Below are positions 5,154 to 39,157 of a stretch of DNA of 64,000 bases, piece by piece. The notes under the pieces are model-generated. The model was given only the letters and a program-made list of their open reading frames with translations, was not told the origin of the DNA and made no database searches. The first letter of the stretch is position 1, and every line of letters begins with the position of its first letter. This stretch comes from Sphingomonas japonica (GTDB lineage Bacteria; Pseudomonadota; Alphaproteobacteria; Sphingomonadales; Sphingomonadaceae), in NCBI RefSeq assembly GCF_006346325.1, contig NZ_VDYR01000002.1:1-64000 (forward strand). Reading direction: 5' to 3'. The translations under genes and the position numbers were made by a program.

Positions 5154-5229
5154 CCGTTCGTTTCGAGCGAAGTCGAGAAACTGGTCTTGGCACGTCAGGC
5201 ACGTTCTCGACGACGCTCGAAACGAACGG
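5154..5229. repeat. Dispersed palindromic element (REPIN-like) between convergent genes
   Basis: Two 26-base arms (5154-5179 and 5204-5229) are inverted copies matching at 24 of 26 positions, around a 24-base centre. The shared core is GTTTCGAGCG, followed by GTCGAGAA. The element fills the 94-base gap between the stop of the UdgX gene and the stop of the convergent aldo/keto reductase gene. It could act as a two-way transcription terminator. Related elements occur at 34393-34469 and on both sides of the GIY-YIG gene near 38.3-38.7 kb. Confidence 0.85.
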
Positions 5230-34392: not shown

Positions 34393-34469
34393 CCATTTGT
34401 TTCGAGCGAAGTCGAGCAACCGCCACGTAGCGCTCGATCACGTCTCTCCGTTACGCTCGAAACGGACGG
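34393..34469. repeat. Dispersed palindromic element between convergent genes
   Basis: An imperfect inverted repeat has arms at 34393-34417 and about 34447-34469. Both contain GTTTCGAGCG, the core seen in the element at 5154-5229, with a CGCTCGA copy inside the loop. Like that element it fills the gap between two convergent stops (zinc-ribbon protein and acyl-CoA dehydrogenase). The outer parts of the arms have diverged. Confidence 0.75.
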
Positions 34470-37539: not shown

Positions 37540-38616
37540 TCAGACACCGCCGCCGCTGCGTGGCCGTGCCAGCGTCGACAGGATACCGCGCACCGTGCGC
37601 ACTTCCTGCGCCGACCAGCCGGGCTTGGTCAGCAAGGTGCGCAGCATGCGCCGCGTCGTCGGCGCGCGATCGGCGGAATGGAAATAGCCGCCGTCGACGA
37701 GCATGGCGTCGAGCTGCGCCAGCATCTGGTCGAGCTCGTCCTGTGGCGCGGGTGGGTCGAGGTCGACCGCGGGCGGCTGTGCCAGTGCGATGCCCTTCGA
37801 CCATTCATAGGCGACGAGGATCACCGCCTGCGCCAGGTTGAGCGATCCGAATTCGGGATTGATCGGCACGGTGATGATCGTCCGCGCGACCGCCACGTCG
37901 TCGCTGTCGAGCCCCGAGCGCTCCGGGCCGAACAGGATCGCCGATCGCCCCGGTGCCTCGTGCATGGCCCGCGCGGCGGCTTCAGGCGTGACCACCGGCT
38001 TGGTCACGCCGCGCTTGCGCACGGTGGTGGCGTAGACATGCGCGCAATCGGCGGTGGCGGCAGCGACGCTGTCGAACACGGTGGCCTGATCGATGACGCG
38101 GTCGGCGCCCGATGCGGCCGGGCCGGCCTGCGGGTTGGGCCAGCCGTCGCGCGGGGTGACGAGCCGCAATTCGGTCAATCCGAAATTGAGCATGGCCCGC
38201 GCCGCCTTGCCGATATTCTCGCCGAGTTGCGGGCGCACGAGGACGATGACGGGGGGTGCGACATCCACTTCCGTTCGTCCCGAGCGTAGTCGAGGGACAT
38301 TGCTGAGCGAAGTCGAGGCAGCTCGAGCCGCGCACTCACTGGGAGGTGCCGAAACGCGCTTCAGCCGATCCCAATCCTCCGAAATCAGCGATTCCTTTTT
38401 CGCTCGCGACCACGACTTGATCCGCAATTCGGCAGCCAAGGCTTCCTGCCGCGTCGGAAACTCCGCGCTCCACACGAATTCGAGCGGGCGGCGGTCATAT
38501 GTATAGCCCTGATACGCGCCTGAATGATGCTGGCCGATCCGGCGTTCGAGGTTGTCGGTATGGCCGGTGTAGTAAGTGCCGTCATTGCAGCGCAGGATGT
38601 AGGTCCAGAAGGTCAC
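37540..38616 (-). CDS. Continuous frame: GIY-YIG nuclease domain fused to TrmJ-type RNA methyltransferase
   Basis: One uninterrupted frame of about 358 codons from GTG 38616 holds two units. Codons 1 to about 90 are a single-domain GIY-YIG nuclease (COG2827/YhbQ type): WTYILRC, GTYYTGHTDNLERRIGQH with the catalytic arginine, and AAELRIKSWSRAKKE with the metal-binding glutamate. About 30 linker codons (AASTSLSNVPRLRSGRTE) are the translated dispersed repeat. From GTG 38268 follows a complete SPOUT methyltransferase of TrmJ type (VIVLVRPQLGENIGKAARAM, ILFGPERSGL, PEFGSLNLAQAVILVAYEW), about 242 residues, which would 2'-O-methylate tRNA. The frame could give a fusion protein, or TrmJ may start separately at 38268, where the SD is weak. 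The TrmJ part equals a whole family member. Confidence 0.8.
   Translation of the reverse strand: MTFWTYILRCNDGTYYTGHTDNLERRIGQHHSGAYQGYTYDRRPLEFVWSAEFPTRQEALAAELRIKSWSRAKKESLISEDWDRLKRVSAPPSECAARAASTSLSNVPRLRSGRTEVDVAPPVIVLVRPQLGENIGKAARAMLNFGLTELRLVTPRDGWPNPQAGPAASGADRVIDQATVFDSVAAATADCAHVYATTVRKRGVTKPVVTPEAAARAMHEAPGRSAILFGPERSGLDSDDVAVARTIITVPINPEFGSLNLAQAVILVAYEWSKGIALAQPPAVDLDPPAPQDELDQMLAQLDAMLVDGGYFHSADRAPTTRRMLRTLLTKPGWSAQEVRTVRGILSTLARPRSGGGV
38271..38320. repeat. Left inverted repeat of the GIY-YIG cassette
   Basis: The unit begins CCGTTCGTCCCGAGC. It contains two short hairpins side by side: GTCCC...GGGAC (38277-38298) and TGC...GCA around TGAGCGAAGTCGAGG (38301-38320). It is an inverted relative of 38624-38671. 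It ends two bases before the GTG codon where TrmJ homology starts, and it is translated in the long fused frame. Confidence 0.85.
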
Positions 38617-38623
38617 GGAGAGA

Positions 38624-38671
38624 TTCTCGCTTCGCTCGAGCAAGTCCCTCGACTTTGCTCGGGACGAACGG
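38624..38671. repeat. Right inverted repeat of the GIY-YIG cassette
   Basis: Read on the minus strand it begins CCGTTCGTCCCGAGC, followed by AAAGTCGAGGGAC and then TTGCTCGAGCGAAGCGAGAA. It is the inverted partner of 38271-38320. It lies just upstream of the GIY-YIG start, so it also forms the leader of that gene. Confidence 0.85.
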
Positions 38672-38695: not shown

Positions 38696-39157
38696 CTATC
38701 CCCGCGCCACCTCGCTGACGCTTCCAGCGAATTCCTCGAAATCGCGCGCTTCGGTGAAATCCTTGTAGACGCTGGCGAAACGGATGTACGCGACCGAATC
38801 GACGCCCTTCAGCGCTTCCATCACCAGCTCGCCGATCCGCACCGAGGCGACTTCGCTTTCGCCCGACGTCTCGATCTGGCGCTGGATGCTCGACACCAGC
38901 TGTTCGATCTGCGCGGGCTCGATCGGGCGCTTCGAACAGGCGATCGACACCGATCGCACCAGCTTGTCGCGGTCGAAAGGCTGGCGGCGGTCGGCACTTT
39001 TGAGCACGGTCAGCTCGCGCAGCTGGATGCGCTCGAAGGTGGTGAAGCGCGCGCCGCACGCACCGCATTGCCGCCGCCTGCGGATCGCCGCGCCGTCTTC
39101 GGACGGGCGGCTGTCCTTTACCTGACTGTCCTCATGAAAACAGAAGGGGCAGCGCAT
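38696..39157 (-). CDS. nrdR: Transcriptional repressor NrdR
   Basis: NrdR represses ribonucleotide reductase genes according to ATP/dATP. The 153-residue protein has the N-terminal zinc ribbon [20 protein letters not shown] with [16 protein letters not shown] (two CxxC pairs), then the ATP-cone domain ([19 protein letters not shown] to [13 protein letters not shown]). Length and both domains are complete. Its ATG follows directly on the stop of the 57-residue gene, in the series glyA-small protein-nrdR-trmJ. Confidence 0.96.

Follow-up and report, generated by a model that had tools for sequence, protein, structure and literature searches.

The window analysed here, a stretch of 64,000 nucleotides from Sphingomonas japonica (contig NZ_VDYR01000002.1, positions 1 to 64,000), carries between nrdR and trmJ a small GIY-YIG nuclease gene bordered by inverted copies of a repeat that recurs elsewhere in the same DNA. 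The locus raises the question of whether this nuclease and this repeat are partners, as are the RAYT enzymes and REP palindromes to which a preliminary description likened them, and whether the cassette that they form is mobile.

The cassette occupies positions 38271-38671. Its gene (38341-38616, minus strand) is flanked by inverted arms of 42 nt (38271-38312 and 38630-38671), which are 83% complementary and reach approximately 47 nt in a gapped alignment. The encoded protein (92 aa, the GTG start being picked by comparison with relatives) matches PF01541 (GIY-YIG) with an E value of 2.3e-20 and is of the UPF0213 type, a class of about 100 aa, whose members 1zg2 and 1ywl are the closest solved structures. 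The arms start with CCGTTCGTCCCGAGC, and the stem GTCCC...GGGAC that had been described in each flank is found in both. On the 3' side of the gene, a palindrome of the family that we named T1 (38271-38298, plus strand) has its head, CCGTTCGT, outermost and its tail inward, and is followed by an inner extension (38299-38320, plus strand) with a second GAGCGAAGTCGAG motif. On the 5' side, the palindrome (38644-38671, minus strand) also has its head outermost and adjoins an inner extension at 38622-38643 (minus strand).

The neighbouring genes, named as in the preliminary description, are trmJ downstream (37540-38268, minus strand) and nrdR upstream (38696-39157, minus strand). The 0.4-kb nuclease-only unit that had been proposed stands in so far as the arms bracket the gene, but the frame that starts in the nuclease has no stop before trmJ, and the unit is therefore not a clean, self-contained gene. 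This frame (37540-38643, minus strand) crosses the 3' arm and is open for 367 aa, and other nrdR-trmJ cassettes have comparably long open frames; the two genes would thus either be fused as GIY-YIG-TrmJ or have starts that overlap.

The T1 repeat is not confined to the cassette. Allowing up to 2 mismatches, we counted 15 occurrences of its core, GAGCGAAGTCGAG, in the window (3.9 expected; the highest of 100 shuffles gave 9). Nuclease-free examples of the longer repeat comprise a doublet with tails inward (5155-5228) and one solo palindrome (34394-34420, plus strand), in line with the preliminary description. In the whole host genome (2.86 Mb, 6 contigs) we detected 82 copies at up to 3 mismatches, while a reversed control pattern gave 0. 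Among the copies listed, the head adjoining the hairpin reads CCGTTCGT or differs slightly from it, unlike the GTAG of REP/RAYT systems. Paired stem positions covary: the most variable pair was of Watson-Crick type in 77 of the 82 copies, with four pair types represented (shuffled mean 31.4). Folded as DNA, one 28-nt repeat is not outstanding as a hairpin (z -0.42), and doublets of 77 and 108 nt fold strongly (z -10.4 and -5.5).

Neighbouring T1 copies in the host genome are almost uniformly oriented: 26 of the 27 pairs lying within 500 bp have their tails inward, as in the cassette, and a single pair has them outward. They include 25 short doublets with starts 40-80 bp apart, dispersed inverted pairs with a short spacer like those known as REPINs. 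The nuclease lies within one wide pair, of 372 bp; taken by itself, this genome could well have a pair at a spacing of 100-500 bp by chance (mean 0.42 for random placement, P for at least one 0.34), and the case for pairing consequently rests on the comparison across genomes. There are also five long doublets (98-109 bp), three of which (L020, L025 and L027) share the inner ends of the cassette. One half of each agrees with the 22 inner bases on its 3' side at 20, 18 and 16 positions, and the other half with the 22 on its 5' side at 15, 17 and 17, the opposite assignment giving only 8-12. The remaining two are weaker (15 + 11 against 7 + 11 for L006, and 10 + 15 against 6 + 11 for L009). Judged by these alignments, L020, L025 and L027 look like internal-deletion derivatives of the nuclease cassette, comparable to MITEs.

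Relatives of the window protein were sought in 199 genomes of the same family, and the search returned two well-separated groups, one close and one distant. Among the close loci (90 of the 91 matches, one partial match with a stop being left out), T1 palindromes with tails inward were present on both sides of the gene in 74, on one side in 15 and on neither side in 1. The distant group comprised 40 loci: 41 of the best 46 listed were taken (3 partial and 2 other matches being passed over), one of which was dropped as it gave no blast match. These nucleases have palindromes of another type, CGTC, on both sides in 30 cases, on one side in 6 and on neither in 4. The distant group, once considered as a negative control, was dropped from this role, being itself a second nuclease-repeat partnership, and shifted positions were therefore used instead. 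At these positions, displaced by 600-800 bp and mostly inside coding sequence, both-sided palindromes were found in 1 of 354 (a CGTC pair) and 0 of 156 cases, and one-sided ones in 60 and 12. The enrichment of the repeat beside these nucleases, which the preliminary description had proposed to look for, is thus pronounced.

The pairing of nuclease clade and palindrome is specific. Among the loci examined, no nuclease of the T1 clade has paired CGTC arms and none of the CGTC clade has paired T1 arms. A motif-free inverted-repeat score gave medians of 31.5 for the close and 29 for the distant loci, against 13.5 for controls (maximum 26.5, n = 177), with about a quarter of the close loci within the control range. 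The opposite, tails-outward arrangement was seen on both sides in 19 of 90 close and 7 of 40 distant loci, a possible reason being that many arms are themselves doublets. It is worth mentioning that the host genome carries a CGTC-clade GIY-YIG gene (L002, C1:451026-451241) with no CGTC palindromes adjoining.

The same arrangements extend beyond the family. Fourteen of 20 T1-clade relatives from other families (L232 and L235-L253) scored above the control maximum of 22, obtained from 58 control positions at all 30 loci of that search; the exceptions were L237, L240, L243, L246, L251 and L253. A related palindrome, e.g. CCTCATCCTGAGGAGC...GTCTCGAAGGATGA, is present in most of the flanks. Among CGTC-clade loci in named records, the best 80 of at least 554 comprised 54 with palindromes on both sides, 21 with one and 5 with none, at least 2 of these loci (L255, L264) probably coming from genomes already present in the set of 40; control positions were both-sided in 2 of 144 cases and one-sided in 14. 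This best-80 set takes in Neisseria gonorrhoeae, Bergeriella, Rhodanobacter, Xanthomonas, Azospirillum, Thalassospira and metagenome bins of other phyla.

Within the T1 clade, the repeat subtype of the nuclease equals that of the flanking repeat in 66 of the 70 cases in which it was clear (20 of the 90 nucleases, without a clear subtype, were left out). When the match was required with a neighbour at another site, agreement fell to 38 of 70 (permuted mean 30.9, maximum 43). The subtype match is therefore inseparable from inheritance at a fixed locus, and we rejected it as lock-and-key proof of recognition. Some genomes contain two nucleases of one repeat subtype; none of the 35 within-genome nuclease pairs are recent duplicates, the smallest tree distance being 0.35.

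Analysis of repeat numbers linked abundance with the nuclease. Of the 62 genomes that have a T1 nuclease, 55 contained at least 10 T1 copies (the other 7 having fewer), compared with 37 of the 137 without one, an odds ratio of 21 on raw counts that ignore kinship; the corresponding ratio for the Y1 transposase, also ignoring kinship, was 2.9. No match to PF01797, the Y1/RAYT family, was found in the host genome, and 31 of the 199 family genomes have one. Of the 92 repeat-rich genomes, 71 are without a Y1 transposase and 21 have it, this being the only transposase family surveyed. The RAYT-like partnership proposed at the outset is well supported by this absence of Y1, by the way in which abundance follows the nuclease, and by the cassette ends in three of the five long doublets.

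The type of the repeats follows that of the enzyme as well. TTG repeats outnumber GAAG repeats in 25 of 26 genomes having only TTG-loop nucleases, and GAAG repeats outnumber TTG repeats in 9 of 12 having only GAAG-loop ones (kinship again ignored; the other 24 of the 62 genomes have mixed, long-type or untyped nucleases). At least 10 CGTC repeats were counted in 75 of 124 genomes with a distant-group GIY-YIG gene and in 17 of 75 without it, in a comparison that likewise takes no account of kinship. T1 and CGTC repeats are each also associated with the nuclease of the other clade, so a general richness in REPs contributes to these figures. A profile search of 12 of the 37 repeat-rich genomes that have no T1 nuclease was negative for 5; in the other 7 the matches were confined to distant or broken relatives, which indicates that the repeats can outlast the nuclease or do without it.

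Of the 61 genomes of the genus, 59 allowed the nrdR-trmJ junction to be read: it is filled with a GIY-YIG gene in 24 (one of them a remnant), empty in 29 and otherwise occupied in 2, and in 4 trmJ was absent from the stretch. Filled and empty alleles of one site thus coexist, as with homing endonucleases, and the empty sites that the preliminary description had called for in related strains do exist; in these the two genes overlap or lie at most 59 bp apart. On a tree of nrdR and trmJ covering 53 of the 59 loci, occupancy requires 10 changes, compared with 17.5 after shuffling (range 13-23).

Some closely similar junctions house clearly different nucleases. Between L190 and L194, 440 of 451 bases of nrdR and 473 of 500 of trmJ are identical, against 54 of 86 residues of the nucleases; the corresponding values are 414/451, 458/500 and 56/82 for L208 and L213, and 428/451, 464/500 and 51/74 for L174 and L192. 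The flanks of 15 pairs are more than 90% identical, and their nucleases share 63-70% identity in 8 pairs and 80-99% in 7. Yet over all 253 pairs (the remnant, L179, being left out) flank and nuclease identity are correlated (Spearman 0.53). Since near-identical flanks enclose diverged nucleases while the overall correlation persists, we conclude that one junction has been refilled, against a mainly inherited background. Three repeat subtypes are represented among the cassettes at this junction.

Throughout the family, 26 of the 90 T1 loci lie at nrdR-trmJ. Of the remaining 64, 21 form one group with homologous genes on both sides (representatives L088 and L108, at yqeY-dnaG) and 7 form another (representatives L074 and L104, beside a pseudouridine synthase gene). 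The CGTC loci fall into groups of 6, 4 and 3. Group representatives were seen among housekeeping genes: between genes for a dihydrolipoyl-type (lpd-like) reductase and an E2 acyltransferase (L141), between those for succinyl-CoA ligase and an E1 dehydrogenase (L132), and near L35 and pheS (L131). Over half of the 90 cassettes are therefore found at a few conserved junctions, which points to a distribution that owes much to vertical descent, accompanied by gain, loss and replacement, and not to unrestricted mobility.

The yqeY-dnaG junction was examined at 69 loci from 195 genomes with yqeY, 30 of them best-scoring and 39 picked by hand, known cassette loci being passed over. Where both genes were present (67 loci), 8 contained a GIY-YIG gene, 3 T1 repeats only and 56 neither; given this non-random sample, 8 of 67 is not a frequency. 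In the host genome (L355), this junction has one solo T1 repeat (C1, 930240-930266), at a place where other genomes have the whole cassette, and the solo copy is possibly a scar.

Target-site duplications of the kind left by insertion sequences were not found in the 65 of the 90 cassettes with both arms located (k of 2-5, offsets from -6 to +7). This lack fits a single-strand route and equally fits old insertions. A pyrimidine-rich box (approximately CCCAYCTCC) ahead of the CGTTCG head in these 65 cassettes could belong either to the element or to its target. The empty and replaced junctions are in keeping with a unit that can be gained and exchanged; against free movement speak the lack of target duplications, the lack of recent nuclease duplicates and the concentration at a few sites with much vertical inheritance.

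A nuclease of a different family was observed at yqeY-dnaG. Twelve of the loci examined there have a DUF559 gene near yqeY (L354, L360, L363, L368, L371, L374, L379, L382, L385, L388, L405 and L412), the three checked against Pfam being PF04480, a domain which we take to be Vsr-like. All 12 have inverted-flank scores of at least 24.5 (control maximum 15.5, n = 18), and 10 carry a CTCCCCTCCC-type palindrome on both sides under a strict palindrome pattern. Elsewhere (L416-L465; 49 of the 50 loci, one being incomplete, with a further match, L303, too short to judge), inverted flanks scoring at least 23 were seen in 28 of 49 loci and in 0 of 98 controls. The palindrome was present on both sides in 24 of these 28 and in 29 of the 49 overall (1 of 98 controls), and the rest, including several long or fused frames, showed nothing of the kind. 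The flanks of about half of the loci surveyed elsewhere suggest a third pairing, between DUF559 nucleases and CCCTCTCCC-type palindromes.

One alternative is a homing-type cassette, whose nuclease would cut the cassette-free nrdR-trmJ (or yqeY-dnaG) junction, with repair copying the unit in and the arms being mere borders. Such behaviour would agree with the 29 empty and 24 filled junctions of a single genus, with the swapping of different nucleases between near-identical flanks, and with the residence of 26 T1 loci at nrdR-trmJ and 21 in the yqeY-dnaG group. We nevertheless regard it as unlikely, as it leaves unexplained the dispersed doublets and solo repeats and their link to the presence and type of the nuclease, and as the tree shows occupancy to be partly vertical; three repeat subtypes at nrdR-trmJ and an unrelated DUF559 nuclease at yqeY-dnaG in other genomes also speak against it.

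Conserved sites and a vertical signal could also reflect a housekeeping role. The Neisseria nuclease Ssn, said to have been described in 2025, is reportedly a single-strand-specific GIY-YIG enzyme that cuts DNA at genomic repeats and modulates transformation. If the T1 nuclease acted likewise, the repeats would be cleavage sites and the pair would be kept by selection, e.g. for limiting the uptake of foreign single-stranded DNA, with no mobility. The CGTC clade does have members from Neisseriaceae with CGTC repeat flanks, but movement is suggested by the doublets in which the cassette ends recur and by the exchange of nucleases at one junction, and we consider this role rather improbable. It is highly improbable that the repeats spread by other means (a RAYT, another transposase or replication slippage) and that the nuclease genes landed in REP-rich spacers as safe sites: many repeat-rich genomes are now without the nuclease, and some IS elements are known to land in REPs (PMC1525189), but the landing would have to be clade-specific, with no crossed arms among the loci examined, and Y1 transposases are present in just 21 of the 92 repeat-rich genomes.

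The explanation that we favour, with moderate confidence, is that the cassette represents a REP family in the form that carries the nuclease, in which a GIY-YIG enzyme and its cognate palindrome work like RAYT and REP with an unrelated enzyme. Beside the observed specific pairing, empty and replaced sites, shared ends and copy-number link, we infer recognition, cutting and mobilisation of the palindrome by the nuclease. Most likely, the enzyme would recognise the palindrome, which in single-stranded DNA would probably form a hairpin, and nick beside it, whereupon replication and repair would copy or move hairpin pairs. Solo copies would thereby be dispersed, as would tail-to-tail doublets, among them internal-deletion forms of the cassette. 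The cassette itself would mostly reside at a small number of conserved operon junctions, nrdR-trmJ and yqeY-dnaG among them, and be gained, lost and replaced there. We know of no strand-transfer chemistry for GIY-YIG enzymes, and completion of the process would thus fall to host repair.

Several known systems invite comparison. Free-standing GIY-YIG homing endonucleases of the T4 Seg type are likewise stand-alone genes between conserved genes, with empty alleles; in contrast, the window gene has at its borders inverted palindromes of which further copies are scattered elsewhere. Neisseria Ssn is probably the characterised relative, and the window protein is also a small GIY-YIG protein, but it pairs with another palindrome. 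The homologue from Bergeriella (Neisseriaceae) belongs to the CGTC clade, being 58% identical to a sphingomonad member and 35% to the window protein.

In REP/RAYT systems and REPINs (PMC2817692, PMC3116915), an enzyme gene lies between inverted copies of a dispersed palindrome, and inverted doublets are dispersed too. Both features are shared here, the enzyme gene of the window being flanked in the same manner and the host genome having its 25 short doublets. The system differs in that the enzyme is of the GIY-YIG and not the Y1 HUH type, that the head is CCGTTCGT instead of GTAG, and that two nucleases of the same repeat subtype coexist in some genomes. CGTC-tagged REPs without a dedicated transposase were described by Di Nocera et al. 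2013 (PMC3733652), and that text contains no occurrence of "GIY". These are the repeats that flank the second GIY-YIG clade, and the window repeat, CCGTTCGTCCCGAGC..., constitutes a separate family. Among the papers listed in searches of the open-licence literature, we saw none tying GIY-YIG or DUF559 nucleases to REPs, nor any by repeat sequence, and the words nuclease, RAYT and transposase are absent from the text of the RepRanger paper (PMC12306157).

As REPs are widespread in bacterial genomes, a nuclease with its own palindrome in a genome with no detectable Y1 is a concrete candidate for a partner enzyme. More tentatively, and with somewhat more doubt than conviction, we suggest that most non-RAYT REP families may have a small endonuclease of their own, recruited convergently from unrelated folds: GIY-YIG enzymes of two clades for the T1 and CGTC palindromes and Vsr-like DUF559 enzymes for the CCCTCTCCC-type palindromes, beside the HUH enzymes of the RAYTs. 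In that case a sequence-specific nick beside a hairpin, with host repair, would suffice for the spread of REPs, no transposase being needed, and the CGTC REPs would gain their missing enzyme. Should DUF559 act likewise, the spread of REPs would be a convergent habit of small nucleases and not a speciality of HUH transposases.
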